Source of the DNA: Jiangella endophytica | GTDB lineage: Bacteria; Actinomycetota; Actinomycetes; Jiangellales; Jiangellaceae | Assembly (NCBI RefSeq): GCF_003427025.1 | Contig: NZ_QVAI01000011.1 | Location: 186,001-250,000, forward strand | Direction: 5' to 3' | DNA length: 64,000 bases | In this document: positions 1,740-6,328 of the stretch, piece by piece | Layout: each line of letters begins with the position of its first letter | How positions within the stretch are numbered: the stretch's first letter is position 1 | The notes under the pieces: model-generated | Told to the model about the DNA's origin: nothing | Seen by the model: the letters and a program-made list of their open reading frames with translations, nothing else | The model's database searches: none | Position numbers and translations under genes: made by a program

Positions 1740-2560
1740 GCGCCGACATCGACCGCAGCGACCCGGGCCCCAAGGTCGCCGCCCACCACCGCTCCGGCAG
1801 CGGGGTCACGCGGATCCCGTACCCGATCGGCGTCCGCAGCGTCGCCGTCCGCCGCCGCGAGCAGGTGACGCCGCGGATGCTGCGCCTGACGCTCGGCGGT
1901 CCGGGCCTGGCCGGTCTGCACACCTACCACGCCGACGACCACGTCAAGATCGTCTTCCCGGACGACGACGGCGTCCTGCGCGCGCCGGTGCCCAACGACC
2001 GCCAGCTGCTGGACTGGCCGCGACCGCTGCCGCCGACCCGCGACTACACGATCCGCCGCTACGACCCGGACGGTCTGGAGGTGGACCTCGACGTCGTCCT
2101 GCACGACGGCGGCCTGGCGTCGTCCTGGGCGGCGGGCGCGCGGGTCGGCGAGGAGGTGACGATCGCCGGGCCGCCGGGCGGGAAGGCGTTCCCCTACACC
2201 TACGACCACTACGTCCTGGCCGTCGACGCGACCGGGCTACCGGCCGTCGCGCGCTGGCTGGAGTCCGCGCCGGCCGGCGTCAGCGCCGACGTCGTGGTCG
2301 AGACCGGCGAACCGGCCGAGCACGACTATCCGGTCCCTCACGGTGAGCGGGTGACGGTGCATCCGCTGGTCCGCGCCACGACGGGCTCGGCGCTCGCCGC
2401 GACCGTCGACGCGTTGCCGCGGCGCCTCGGGCGGACGTTCCTGTTCGCCGCGGGCGAGGCGGGCGACGTCAAGCCACTGCGGAGCTCGCGGCGCGGCGAG
2501 GTCGACGCCCTGGTGACCGGGTACTGGAAACGCGGCGTCGCCGGGCACGACGACGACTAG
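1736..2560 (+). CDS. Siderophore-interacting protein (FAD-dependent ferric-siderophore reductase)
   Basis: The 274-residue protein starts at an ATG overlapping the upstream TGA (ATGA), so it is probably translationally coupled to the binding lipoprotein. It has the SIP-family layout: an FAD-binding barrel with TRDYTIRRYD near residue 100, and a C-terminal NAD(P)H domain ending in DALVTGYWKRG, typical of the ViuB/YqjH group. These cytoplasmic flavoproteins reduce and release iron from imported siderophores. The 3' end overlaps the stop codon of the convergent lipoprotein gene. Linker sequences such as SRRGEVD differ from better-known members, but the family assignment is firm. Confidence 0.9.
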   Translation: MSADIDRSDPGPKVAAHHRSGSGVTRIPYPIGVRSVAVRRREQVTPRMLRLTLGGPGLAGLHTYHADDHVKIVFPDDDGVLRAPVPNDRQLLDWPRPLPPTRDYTIRRYDPDGLEVDLDVVLHDGGLASSWAAGARVGEEVTIAGPPGGKAFPYTYDHYVLAVDATGLPAVARWLESAPAGVSADVVVETGEPAEHDYPVPHGERVTVHPLVRATTGSALAATVDALPRRLGRTFLFAAGEAGDVKPLRSSRRGEVDALVTGYWKRGVAGHDDD

Positions 2561-3081
2561 GACTCGTCGCCGGACTCCTTGATCGGCTCACCGGCCGGCG
2601 AGACGACGTACCAGACCTCGCCGACGTCCTCACCGGTGACGTCGCCCGGAGCCTGGTCCTGGGCGTAGGTGTAGAGCGGCCAGCCGTTCAGCGTGAGCTG
2701 CGGCTTGCCGTCGACGCCGGTGATGGTGCCGACCTCGCCGGTGACCCCCTGAACCGCCGGGGTGGCCGACGCGGCGGGGACGGCCGGCCAGGCGGCCGCA
2801 CACTGGTCGGTGCACGTGGACGTGCCGGCACCTTGCGTGTCGTTGGTGTAGACGTACACCGTCATGCCCTTGCCGTCGACCACGATCTCGCCCAGACTCG
2901 ACGACGCCGCGGCCAGCTCGAGCGAGGCCGGCGCGACCGGCGCGGACGGCGCCTCCGACGATCCGGACGACGACGTGGGCGCCGCGGGCGCGGCGGTGTT
3001 CCCGTCTCCGCCGCTGTCCGAGCAGCCGGCCAGTGCGAGCACGAGCCCGGTGCCGAGGACGGCCACAGTGCTGATCCTCAT
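2557..3081 (-). CDS. Secreted-repeat lipoprotein (COG4315/PF03640 type)
   Basis: The 174-residue start at 3081 was chosen because AGGGGGA lies 8-9 nt upstream and the product begins with a lipoprotein signal MRISTVAVLGTGL ending LAGC (Cys20). A Ser/Thr/Ala/Pro-rich linker follows. Then come two copies of the secreted repeat of unknown function: GEIVVDGKGMTVYVYTND...CTDQCAAAWP, and LNGWPLYTYAQD..PGDVTGEDVGEVWYVV. These lipoproteins are common in actinobacteria; the biochemical role is unknown and a cell-surface or redox-related role is sometimes suggested. The gene converges on the SIP gene, with overlapping stop codons. Confidence 0.85.
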   Translation of the reverse strand: MRISTVAVLGTGLVLALAGCSDSGGDGNTAAPAAPTSSSGSSEAPSAPVAPASLELAAASSSLGEIVVDGKGMTVYVYTNDTQGAGTSTCTDQCAAAWPAVPAASATPAVQGVTGEVGTITGVDGKPQLTLNGWPLYTYAQDQAPGDVTGEDVGEVWYVVSPAGEPIKESGDES

Positions 3082-3183
3082 GATGACGTTCCCCCTGCCT
3101 GCCGCGAGTTCGCGGCCCACGACAGGTCATACGGAGGACGCGCGCCGCGGGATGGGCCGGTCCGCCCGCACTAGCCTGGGCGG

Positions 3184-4623
3184 GTGACGACGCAGCCACC
3201 GATCCCGGACCCGGCGCTGGTGGTGCTGGTGGGCGCCTCCGGCGCGGGCAAGTCCGAGTGGGCGCGGGCCCGCTACCGCGCGCAGGAGATCGTGTCCTCC
3301 GACGACCTGCGCGGCGTGGCCGGCAGCGGCCGGCACGACCTCGACGCGACGGACGACGCGTTCGCGCTGCTCGACCGCATCGTCGCCGCGCGCGCCGGCC
3401 GCGGGCTCACCGTCGTCGTCGACACACTGGGCCTGGAGGCCGACCGCCGCCGCGGCTATCTCGCCGTCGCCCGCGAGGCCGGGCTGCCCGCCGTCGCCGT
3501 CCGGTTCGACACGCCCGCCGAGCTGTGCCGCACCCGCAACGCCGCCCGCGACCGGCCGGTCCCCGCCCCGGCGCTGGCCGGCCAGCTGCGCCGAGCGGGC
3601 CAGGTCGCGGCGGAGCTGGACGGCGAGGGCTGGGACCTGGTCGTCACCATCCGGGCCGACACCCCGGAGACCGCCGCCGCACCGCCCGCGCCCGCCGCCG
3701 TGCCGGCGACGGGCGACCGCCAGGTGATCCTGCAGGTCTCCCGCTTCCCCTGGGGCGACGACCCGTCCGGCTGGCTCACGGAGGTCGCGCTGGCCGCCGA
3801 CGAGGCGGGCTTCGCCGGGCTGGCGCTGATGGATCACCTCATCCAGATCCCGCAGGTCGGACGCGCGTGGGACCCGATCCCCGACTCGTTCACGACGCTG
3901 GGCATGCTGGCCGGCCTCGGCGCCGGGCTGCGGCTCGGCCCGCTGTGCACGCCGGTGACGTTCCGGCCCGGAGGCGTCATCGCGAAGGCCGTCGCGACGC
4001 TGGACGTGCTGAGCGGCGGCCGGGCGTTCGTCGGCATCGGCGCCGGCTGGTTCGGCCGCGAGCACGAGGTGCACGGGCTGGCGTTCCCGCCGCCGAAGGA
4101 ACGGCTGGACGAGCTGGAGCGCGCCATCGAGATCATGCGAGCGCTGTGGGCGTCGGGCACGAAGGCGTATTCCGGGACCCGGGTCGCGCTGCCGGAGACG
4201 ACGTCCTACCCGCGCCCGACCGGCCGGCCGGAGATCGTCGTCGGCGGGTCCGGCGACCGGTCGCTGCGCATCGCCGCGGCCCTCGGCGACGCCTGCAACC
4301 TGCGCACCGACGACGGCTTCGACGAGCGGCTGGCGGTGTTCGAGAAGCACCGCGACCGCACCGGCCGCGACGTCGCCGTCACCGTCCTCGACCTGCCGAT
4401 CGTCGGCAGCGACCGCGACGACGTCTGGCGGCGGGTCGAGCGGTCCCGCGGCAACGCGCCGGCGGCGGCGTACGCCCGCAAGCACCACGCCGCCACGGCC
4501 GACCGGACGGCGCGGCGCTACCGCGAGCTGTTCGACCGCGGCGTCCGCACGATCTTCGTCGCCGTGCAGGACCTCGCCTCGCCCGACGACGTCCGCGCGC
4601 TGGCCCCGATCGCCACTCCCTGA
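3184..4623 (+). CDS. Fusion of P-loop kinase domain with LLM-class (F420/FMN) oxidoreductase
   Basis: Residues 1-165 form a small P-loop NTPase of the AAA_33/polynucleotide-kinase-like type, with Walker A GASGAGKS at 17-24 and VVVDTLGL as the probable Walker B region. After an Ala/Pro linker, residues from about 178 to 479 form a luciferase-like monooxygenase domain (QVSRFPWGDDP, GFAGLALMDHLIQIPQVGR, GRAFVGIGAGWFGREHEVHGL). Single-domain members of this second family are usually F420- or FMN-dependent oxidoreductases. The 479-residue length fits the two added together. The GTG start has TAGCCT at 3172-3177, 6 nt upstream, and no clear SD, so the mRNA may be leaderless. The substrate and the reason for the fusion are unknown. 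Confidence 0.85.
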   Translation: MTTQPPIPDPALVVLVGASGAGKSEWARARYRAQEIVSSDDLRGVAGSGRHDLDATDDAFALLDRIVAARAGRGLTVVVDTLGLEADRRRGYLAVAREAGLPAVAVRFDTPAELCRTRNAARDRPVPAPALAGQLRRAGQVAAELDGEGWDLVVTIRADTPETAAAPPAPAAVPATGDRQVILQVSRFPWGDDPSGWLTEVALAADEAGFAGLALMDHLIQIPQVGRAWDPIPDSFTTLGMLAGLGAGLRLGPLCTPVTFRPGGVIAKAVATLDVLSGGRAFVGIGAGWFGREHEVHGLAFPPPKERLDELERAIEIMRALWASGTKAYSGTRVALPETTSYPRPTGRPEIVVGGSGDRSLRIAAALGDACNLRTDDGFDERLAVFEKHRDRTGRDVAVTVLDLPIVGSDRDDVWRRVERSRGNAPAAAYARKHHAATADRTARRYRELFDRGVRTIFVAVQDLASPDDVRALAPIATP

Positions 4624-4628
4624 CGCCG

Positions 4629-4763
4629 TCAGCGGAAGTCGCGCTCCAGCCACGACGTCGGCGGCGCGTCCCATGCCAGCAGCACGAGGGCCGCGAGCAG
4701 CGCCAGCAGCACCGCCAGCACCATCCAGTCGTCCCGGTCCCAGGACCGCCGCGGCGGCCTCAC
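4629..4763 (-). CDS. Small single-pass membrane protein (44 aa)
   Basis: A GTG at 4763 overlaps the TGA of the SGNH-hydrolase gene (GTGA), so it is probably made by translational coupling. The 44 residues comprise a basic N-terminus (RPPRRSWDRDDW), one hydrophobic segment of about 20 residues (MVLAVLLALLAALVLLAW) and a short polar tail ending in ERDFR. That is a believable one-pass membrane protein. No family is recognised. It may help anchor or export the upstream lipoprotein, but this is only inferred from the coupling. It ends 5 nt from the stop of the convergent kinase-LLM gene. Confidence 0.6.
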   Translation of the reverse strand: MRPPRRSWDRDDWMVLAVLLALLAALVLLAWDAPPTSWLERDFR

Positions 4764-5533
4764 GACGCCAGCCCCAGCGCGCGCTCGAGCAGGTCGCACC
4801 AGGCCGCGACGCCCGCGTCGGACGGATGCACGCCGTCGGACAGCAGGTCGCCGGTCACCGCCCCGGCCCAGTCGACGACCACCAGGTTCGGATGGCGCTG
4901 CGCGAGGGCGCGCAGCTGGTCGTTGAGCCAGTCCGAGTGGCTCCGGTCGGCCGCCCGCTGGACCGCGTCGCCGCTCCACCGGTCGACGTGGACGGTGAGC
5001 CAGTACACCGGGCGGCCGTCCGCCGCGGCCAGCACCCGCTCGACCTGCCGCCACCAGCCCAGCGGGGCGAAGACGTCGTTCGCACCGCTCACGACGACGA
5101 TGCCGCGGTCCGGGATCAGCGCGGCGTTCTCGTCGATCCAGTCCGCCGCAGGCTCCGTCGGCCGGCCCGGGTGCGCGTTGACGGCGACCGGCAGGCCGTA
5201 CGCCGCACCGGCCCGGACGGCCAGCTCGTACGCCGTCGCCTGCGCGATCGAGTCGCCGACGACCAGCAGCCCGTCGGCGTCGCGGACCCGGCGGAACTGG
5301 CGGGGCGTGCTGATGGACGGTGTGCGGTGCCGCCACTCCCCCAGCGTGCCGGTGCCCGGCACGGTCCGATCCTCGGTGAGCGCGGGTGGCAGCGCGGCTG
5401 CGCTCGGCGGTTGCGCCGCGAGCGGTGATGGCGCGGCCAGCACGGTGACGTCGTCCGGGGCGGCGCAGCCGGCGGCCGCGCCGAGAGCGAGCGCGAGCGT
5501 CAGGGCGCACGCGGGCAGGGTGAACCGGGGCAT
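4760..5533 (-). CDS. SGNH/GDSL-family hydrolase lipoprotein
   Basis: Start at 5533 was chosen because AAAGGG precedes it and it gives a lipoprotein signal ending GAAAGC (Cys23); a longer ORF upstream adds only polar residues. The 257-residue product has the SGNH blocks: VVGDSIAQ (nucleophile Ser), a Gly block in VNAHPGRP, VVVSGANDVF (Asn block) and SDGVHPSDAG (catalytic Asp/His). It should be a cell-surface esterase or acyl hydrolase acting outside the membrane; the substrate is unknown. A promoter-like pair GCAACC-N17-CGTCC at 5716-5743, the same as those before two SigE genes in this window, suggests ECF-sigma control. Confidence 0.85.
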   Translation of the reverse strand: MPRFTLPACALTLALALGAAAGCAAPDDVTVLAAPSPLAAQPPSAAALPPALTEDRTVPGTGTLGEWRHRTPSISTPRQFRRVRDADGLLVVGDSIAQATAYELAVRAGAAYGLPVAVNAHPGRPTEPAADWIDENAALIPDRGIVVVSGANDVFAPLGWWRQVERVLAAADGRPVYWLTVHVDRWSGDAVQRAADRSHSDWLNDQLRALAQRHPNLVVVDWAGAVTGDLLSDGVHPSDAGVAAWCDLLERALGLAS

Positions 5534-5715
5534 GGTGGTGCCCTTTCGCGAGGCGGCGCCGTCCTGGCGCCGTGACAAGGAGTTCTGGTGGCTCTGTCCC
5601 GCGCGGCCGCCGTGCCCGCGGCCGGCGTGCGGGCGGAGCGCTCAGCCCGGCCCGTCGCGCCCGTTCGCCATCGCCGACCCCCCGATCCGCGGGTTCTCCC
5701 CCGCCTCACTCTCAA

Positions 5716-5830: not shown

Positions 5831-6328
5831 GTGGATTCGCAGATCGATGACGAGTTCCGGCGCTTCGTGGCCGGACGGTCGCTGGCGCTGCTGCGCACCG
5901 CGTACGCGCTGTGCGGCGACCGGCACACGGCCGAGGACCTCGTGCAGGGCGCGCTGGCCAAGCTGTACCGCCGCTGGCGCAAGGTCGACGACCCCGAGGG
6001 GTACGTCCGCCGGATCCTCTACAACGACCAGATCAGCCGGTGGCGCCGGCGGCTGGTCCTGCACGAGGACCCGGTCGACGTCGTGCCGGAGAACGCGGCG
6101 CCCGATCTCGCCGGCGCCGTCGGCGACCGCGTGGACGTCCTGCAGCTGCTGCGACAGCTGCCGCCGCGGCAACGGGCCGTGCTGGTGCTGCGCTACTACG
6201 AGGACCTGTCCGAACGCGAGATCGCCGCGGTGCTCGGGTGCTCGACCGGGACGGTCCGCAGCCAGGCGCACCGGGCCCTCGCCCGGCTGCGGGGCCTCGC
6301 CCTCGAACCGACCCTGGACGGAGCCTGA
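5831..6328 (+). CDS. SigE-family ECF RNA polymerase sigma factor
   Basis: The 165-residue protein starts at GTG after a strong GGGAGG. Region 2 contains LLRTAYALCGDRHTAEDLVQGAL and VRRILYNDQISRWRR; region 4 contains LPPRQRAVLVLRYYEDLSEREIA and GCSTGTVRSQAHRALARLR. The pattern fits the actinobacterial SigE-family ECF group, of which two more members lie at 30814 and 32707. The gene ends 2 nt before a membrane-protein gene whose N-terminus resembles those of the partners of the other two sigma factors, so the pair probably forms a sigma/anti-sigma unit. Confidence 0.93.
   Translation: MDSQIDDEFRRFVAGRSLALLRTAYALCGDRHTAEDLVQGALAKLYRRWRKVDDPEGYVRRILYNDQISRWRRRLVLHEDPVDVVPENAAPDLAGAVGDRVDVLQLLRQLPPRQRAVLVLRYYEDLSEREIAAVLGCSTGTVRSQAHRALARLRGLALEPTLDGA

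Follow-up and report, generated by a model that had tools for sequence, protein, structure and literature searches.

A kinase domain of the type found in bacterial RNA repair and a luciferase-like (LLM) oxidoreductase domain are joined in one open reading frame of Jiangella endophytica, and the fusion is real and conserved, not an accident of assembly. We hold it to be an even chance that the product is a genuine two-activity enzyme of Actinomycetota, which arose once and in which both halves are competent, the acceptor of the kinase has changed and the LLM redox step belongs to the same pathway. In the window (the whole 64,000-nucleotide stretch of DNA analysed here), the fusion gene occupies positions 3184-4623 of the forward strand, stop codon included, with a GTG start and a product of 479 residues. 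A -10-like box, TAGCCT (3172-3177, forward strand), lies 6 nt upstream of the start codon; TAGCCT or TAACCT recurs at the same spacing in nine of the ten genus sequences compared (L010 lacks it), which suggests a probable leaderless promoter and transcript for the fusion gene. Around it lie a Lipoprotein_15 lipoprotein-type gene (2557-3120) and a GDSL-type lipase gene (4760-5578), both on the other strand, and a gene for a sigma-70-type factor (5831-6328). An earlier note on this DNA had proposed a P-loop kinase and an LLM domain within one 479-residue chain, with a Walker A motif at residues 17-24. Pfam places AAA_33 at residues 12-137 (E = 3.9e-22) and Bac_luciferase at residues 198-456 (E = 2e-38), both above their curated cut-offs, and the motif GASGAGKS stands at residues 17-24 (3232-3255, forward strand), so both proposals hold. 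The accompanying view that the families are known and the function of their fusion undescribed agrees with these assignments and with the open-licence papers searched, among which, judged from listings, no description of the fusion was evident; the combination is uncharacterised so far.

The same domain order, whose distribution the earlier note had proposed to check, was found in one open frame at all 80 of the best named-genome loci, taken from at least 539 relative-encoding stretches; contig ends truncate two of these loci (L106, L107), and two (L108, L109) have a frame break inside the gene. Among these 80 best loci the closest named relatives of the window protein are from Jiangella species (72-91% identity), and the other hosts include Nocardioides, Terrabacter, Pedococcus, Janibacter, Knoellia, Pseudonocardia, Microlunatus and others, together with a Nitriliruptorales MAG and Acidimicrobiales MAGs. 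Eleven of the 12 genus genomes, its own included, carry the fusion, ten of them at full length; in G002 a contig end leaves just the first 135 fusion residues, and G003 has LLM-type matches only. Across 393 genomes of the class, matches at E of about 1e-97 or better were confined to the genus and to G372, G222, G286, G067, G341, G078, G101, G029, G133 and G028, with the match in G341 covering the LLM part of a gene cut by the contig end and G067 holding both parts within one frame, a long linker between them. At least nine of 396 phylum genomes (its own included) matched at E = 1e-60 or better, a lower bound given that G618 carries a kinase and an LLM domain yet is absent from that list. The fusion is uncommon in the sampled genomes but widespread across Actinomycetota. 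One copy in G681 (L042:1408-2733) covers positions 1-197 of the LLM profile and resumes at 282-310, about 85 LLM residues being gone from a frame that stays open; the gap (profile positions 198-281) may be a deletion or an assembly error. A plasmid collection gave no matches at E = 1e-40, and a phage collection gave a single record with the fusion, MT836289.1 (L213; 9162-10628, 60% identity), labelled 'Bacteriophage sp.' and UNVERIFIED. Judged by eye, the remaining frames of this record look bacterial (response regulator, histidine kinase, peptidases), and phage carriage was set aside because the record is probably a mislabelled bacterial contig.

The N-terminal half belongs specifically to the Pnkp type of bacterial RNA-repair kinase, its fold being read from a predicted model. 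Residues 6-158 (3199-3657, forward strand), a Pnkp-type P-loop kinase domain by profile matches and AlphaFold2 model, match positions 4-157 of NCBIfam TIGR04075 (bacterial polynucleotide kinase-phosphatase) with 99.8 bits on the protein and 101 in the genome search, below a cut-off of 750 that covers all three modules; compared with bacterial Pnkp (PDB 4gp6, 4mde), the fusion is without the phosphatase and ligase modules. The best solved sequence match is the Clostridium thermocellum enzyme, CthPnkp (E = 6.5e-19, and 7.9e-35 by profile). The model of the kinase half (48-row alignment, mean pLDDT 94.1, pTM 0.89) likewise has the CthPnkp kinase as its top fold match (Z = 24.9, rmsd 1.4 Å, 159 residues aligned), with mammalian PNKP (Z = 17.1), archaeal O-phosphoseryl-tRNA kinase and T4 PNK (both 15.9) and gluconate kinase (13.0) lower in the ranking. 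The P-loop GxxGxGKS/T, the equivalents of Asp38 and Arg41 and the first lid arginines of the Pnkp type are all present; Asp38, Arg41 and the lid arginines are residues that we take to be functional in the Pnkp kinase. Asp40 and Arg43 (within 3301-3312, forward strand) align with Asp38 and Arg41, and the equivalence of Asp40 follows from the 4mde chain, which has Asn at this position of the profile alignment, presumably a mutated Asp38 with a catalytic role.

Conservation was counted over 108 fusion rows, which include repeats of one locus (L001, L128 and L131; L002 and L071; others) and represent 97 distinct frames. Loss of the kinase catalytic residues in all relatives, the outcome that in the earlier note would have marked a non-catalytic remnant, was not what we found: Lys23, Asp40, Arg43, Arg70 and Asp80 are invariant across 107 rows, the one other row having a gap there, position 24 is occupied by Ser (101 rows) or Thr (6 rows), and Arg89, Arg118 and Arg122 are present in 108 of 108 rows, with Asn119 in 107. 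Within the lid segment (residues 118-124: Arg118, Asn119, Arg122 and Arg124; 3535-3555, forward strand), Arg124, the second lid arginine, is kept in 88 of the 108 fusion rows and lost in 20, and is present in 45 of 45 Pnkp rows (47 minus the fusion fragments L013 and L109). The fusion departs further from Pnkp at residues 80-84 (3421-3435, forward strand), which read exactly DTLGL in 74 of 108 rows and as variants in the rest, whereas the Pnkp rows have DATNV (33), DATSV (9), DATNL (2) or DAANV (1). At position 53 the fusion rows have Leu (91) far more often than Gln (11), the residue of 44 of 45 Pnkp rows; at position 49, 100 of the 108 have Gly where all 45 Pnkp rows have Asp. The window protein itself has DTLGL and Leu53, and so departs from Pnkp with its DATN(V) segment and Gln51. 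We take the DATNV segment and Gln51 of Pnkp to line the acceptor site; since both are mostly replaced, the acceptor of the fusion kinase probably differs from that of Pnkp.

An alternative interpretation places the fusion in RNA repair: its kinase half would have remained a genuine 5'-OH polynucleotide kinase, and its LLM half would act on RNA ends, modifying or reducing something there. The top match in both fold and sequence is Pnkp, Asp40, Arg43, Arg118 and Arg122 are kept, and an independent neighbourhood points the same way: at 16 of 44 Pnkp loci, Hen1-Pnkp is preceded on its own strand, at a distance of about 50 bases to 2.5 kb, by a different LLM gene (L124:3838-4881; L123, L138, L140, L143-L148, L150, L155-L157, L165 and L166). 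We nevertheless consider this reading unlikely because the DATNV segment and Gln53 are mostly replaced, because five fusion genomes (G002, G007, G011, G028 and G029) are without Pnkp at E = 1e-150, because the own genome already has a separate complete Pnkp elsewhere, with Hen1 adjoining, and because the Hen1-side LLMs are of another subfamily and occur in 10 of 11 loci of family f19 (L149, the eleventh, shows just fragments), 6 of 12 of family f17 and 0 of 21 elsewhere (among which L141 has no more than about 400 bases upstream). The idea that the Hen1-side LLM is a sister of the fusion LLM was abandoned on the tree, in which the two fall in different subfamilies; an LLM of the own genome (L174) groups with the Hen1-side LLMs, and the fusion LLMs stand apart. 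It is possible, on circumstantial grounds, that the Hen1-side LLM is a redox partner of RNA repair, and the LLM-Hen1-Pnkp neighbourhood may reflect one or two synteny events. A related and speculative proposal, which we rate as rather unlikely, is that the Pnkp-derived kinase and the LLM half share a nucleic-acid- or nucleotide-derived molecule, with an F420- or FMN-dependent redox step in the handling of RNA ends or of nucleotide damage in Actinomycetota; if it were true, the LLM-Hen1-Pnkp neighbourhood would show the link a second time, independently. The fusion-kinase profile finds two kinases only in the own genome, the fusion and Pnkp. In other genomes Pnkp is apparently split over two frames, as overlapping halves in G004 (C4:1305241-1307777) and with the kinase part apparently in a frame apart from the remainder in G098 (C1:1553989-1556474).

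The two domains are joined by a flexible linker (about residues 159-178; 3658-3717, forward strand) that varies in length from 18 to 73 residues (median 23) among the 97 distinct fusion frames and is rich in Ala and Pro. In a model of the whole chain (24 rows, mean pLDDT 82.7, pTM 0.72), the blocks at residues 161-180 have pLDDT of 33-49. Comparing the window gene with eight genus members by simple Nei-Gojobori counts on GC-rich DNA, dN/dS was 0.13-0.30 for the kinase, 0.16-0.36 for the LLM domain and 0.58-2.90 for the linker, the last over about 20 codons; against the more distant L021 and L022, values were 0.36-0.53 and 0.42-0.58 for kinase and LLM. Both domains are under purifying selection and the linker is nearly neutral. 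The earlier note had proposed to test whether both active sites face a common tunnel; with a linker that is variable in length, Ala/Pro-rich, nearly neutral and of low pLDDT, a fixed tunnel or rigid channel between the sites appears unlikely. Of its interpretation, the two competent-looking domains of known families stand, the kinase being sharpened to the Pnkp type; the two activities may act on one substrate, as the note suggested, but a common tunnel looks improbable.

The kinase domain could instead have lost catalysis and regulate the LLM half, through dimerisation or by sensing nucleotides. Its model aligns along the entire CthPnkp kinase (residues 2-160 on 0-159), a domain that forms a homodimer through its ends, and Arg124 is incompletely kept. 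We judge this quite unlikely, however, because the P-loop Lys, Asp40, Arg43, Asp80, Arg118 and Arg122 show no or almost no variation, and because the kinase matches the LLM half in its low dN/dS, which would be unexpected for a dead scaffold. Both halves of the fusion are apparently catalytically competent.

The C-terminal half (residues 179-479; 3718-4620, forward strand) is predicted to be an LLM TIM barrel. It scores 133 bits against PF00296 (gathering cut-off 27.9), and its part of the whole-chain model aligns with LLM structures over 256-299 residues (Z = 25-29). The best NCBIfam match is TIGR03560 (F420_Rv1855c; E = 2.8e-52) at 177.8 bits, below the cut-off of 231.4; TIGR03560 LLMs have in common with the fusion the Asp-His motif, Arg261, Lys268, Trp289 and Glu293, but the fusion LLMs occupy their own side of the tree and have marker residues of their own. 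Shared between the fusion and its stand-alone LLM relatives are Asp217-His218, Gln221, Arg261, Lys268, Trp289, Glu293 and Asn372, and typical of the fusion are Pro223, Gln224, Trp229, Ala271, Gly325, Tyr342, Arg344 and Arg445. Both sets meet in the DHLIQIPQVGRAW loop (residues 217-229; 3832-3870, forward strand), in which Asp217 and His218 are common to other LLMs and Pro223, Gln224 and Trp229 are fusion-typical; residues 219-232 have pLDDT below 50 in the whole-chain model. By single-sequence search the best PDB match is the pyrimidine monooxygenase RutA (E = 9.9e-16), whose GW...E segment aligns with the fusion LLM, with an identity of about 20% in the structural alignment. The LLM cofactor may be F420 or FMN. 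CofD (F420 synthesis) was above the cut-off in 27 of 28 fusion-bearing genomes (including G002 and G341, both contig-cut), the miss being G133, which is 82% complete, and in 28 of 29 when G003, without the fusion, is counted; because CofD was also above the cut-off in 162 of 197 class genomes, its presence beside the fusion says little on the cofactor. A defence role was considered and rejected, the indication being a single weak match of the LLM half to the PADLOC 'oxidoreductase' model (E = 9.3e-07).

The segment Trp289 to Glu293 (4048-4062, forward strand) bears on a further alternative, that the kinase makes a phosphosugar or phosphoalcohol that the LLM half then oxidises, in the manner of a kinase paired with F420-dependent glucose-6-phosphate dehydrogenase. 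Where the GxGE segment of FGD2 (9fp4) and of a bacterial F420 glucose-6-phosphate dehydrogenase (9hav) has its Glu, the fusion has Trp289, a residue found in 106 of 108 fusion rows and also in 29 of the 30 stand-alone ones. This Glu is presumably catalytic in FGD-type F420 dehydrogenases, and Trp in its place argues against such an activity. FGD1, FGD2 and Adf have an LLM fold like that of the fusion (Z of about 27-28), so that the LLM half does match structures of such dehydrogenases, and gluconate kinases are among the fold matches of the kinase half. F420 sugar-phosphate dehydrogenases are described as LLM-type and as acting on phosphorylated substrates (PMC6279831), which also fits. We regard the sequence of phosphorylation and oxidation as very unlikely all the same, because of the Trp, because the NCBIfam F420_G6P_family score is 78.6 against a cut-off of 210.4, and because the kinase model is far nearer CthPnkp than gluconate kinase (Z of 24.9 and 13.0, respectively). 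By the features tested, the fusion protein lies outside Pnkp, TIGR03560 and the FGD family.

If the fusion is the two-activity enzyme that we favour, its Pnkp-type kinase would move the gamma phosphate of an NTP onto a hydroxyl, with Asp40 as the general base and with Lys23 and Mg holding the phosphates. The mostly replaced DATNV segment and Gln at position 53 suggest that the acceptor would not be an ordinary RNA 5' end but probably some smaller hydroxy compound, nucleoside-like or otherwise. The LLM barrel would carry out a reduction or a monooxygenation with F420H2 or FMNH2, as opposed to an FGD-type sugar-phosphate dehydrogenation, either on the compound handled by the kinase or within the same pathway, and the tether would hold the two activities together in a one-to-one amount rather than build a fixed tunnel. 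A fusion kept for so long hints at two activities in one pathway, and the partners come from RNA repair on one side and from a large, mostly uncharacterised LLM family of Actinomycetota on the other. Identifying its substrate would tell what an LLM clade does and show re-use of the polynucleotide kinase fold or, alternatively, reveal redox chemistry in the handling of RNA ends.

The history of the fusion was read from two quick trees that are unrooted and carry SH-aLRT support only. In the maximum-likelihood tree of LLM domains (82 in all: 36 from the 108 fusion rows, 33 from stand-alone LLMs and 13 from the 16 Hen1-side rows; L025, which is contig-cut, the second fragment of L108, L126 as a copy of L014, L177, the side matches in L120, L099 and L088, and the Hen1-side L140, L145 and L147 were left out), the 36 fusion rows form one side of a branch with SH-aLRT 100, and none of the 46 stand-alone or Hen1-side rows falls inside it. 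The tree of 79 kinase domains (without L013, the L109 fragment and L130, a copy of L127) separates 35 fusion rows from 44 Pnkp kinases, again with SH-aLRT 100. Long branches were flagged for L175 with L176 in one tree and for several fusion kinases in the other. With unrooted trees and these long branches, a single origin of the fusion is apparently the simplest reading, short of proof.

Gene neighbourhoods, which the earlier note had proposed to gather, were collected for the best 80 loci but gave no shared pathway: in flanks of up to 10 kb, gene clustering found no conserved operon or pathway partner across these loci. The largest neighbour cluster, an acyl-CoA dehydrogenase mostly on the opposite strand, reached 21 of the 80 loci, by a crude gene caller that clustered the fusion itself together in only 71 of 80. 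Pfam assigned representatives of ten clusters to acyl-CoA dehydrogenase, galactokinase, a LysR-type regulator, peptide deformylase, SpoU methylase, a PadR regulator, a short-chain dehydrogenase and DUF2252, with two of the ten lacking a Pfam match and perhaps being false frames; we read these neighbours as local synteny and discarded them as a guide to a pathway. That the two halves have unrelated activities and their fusion is functionally meaningless would suit the flexible linker and this lack of a recurring operon partner at the best 80 loci, but is highly improbable given that no non-fusion LLM row lies inside the fusion side of the tree and that the fusion-kinase profile leaves a gap across 346 phylum genomes, its nine best matches (at least 184 bits) all having an LLM domain in-frame and the eleven next loci fetched (at most 141 bits) having one in no case. 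Pnkp-type kinase domains also occur in short frames, namely L211 (G656:C14:86558-86986, 269 aa) and L212 (G569:C236:4295-4744, 186 aa), neither frame with an LLM match, and in a 346-aa frame of G076 (C2:80324-80779); by their sequences, these three are possible stand-alone kinases.
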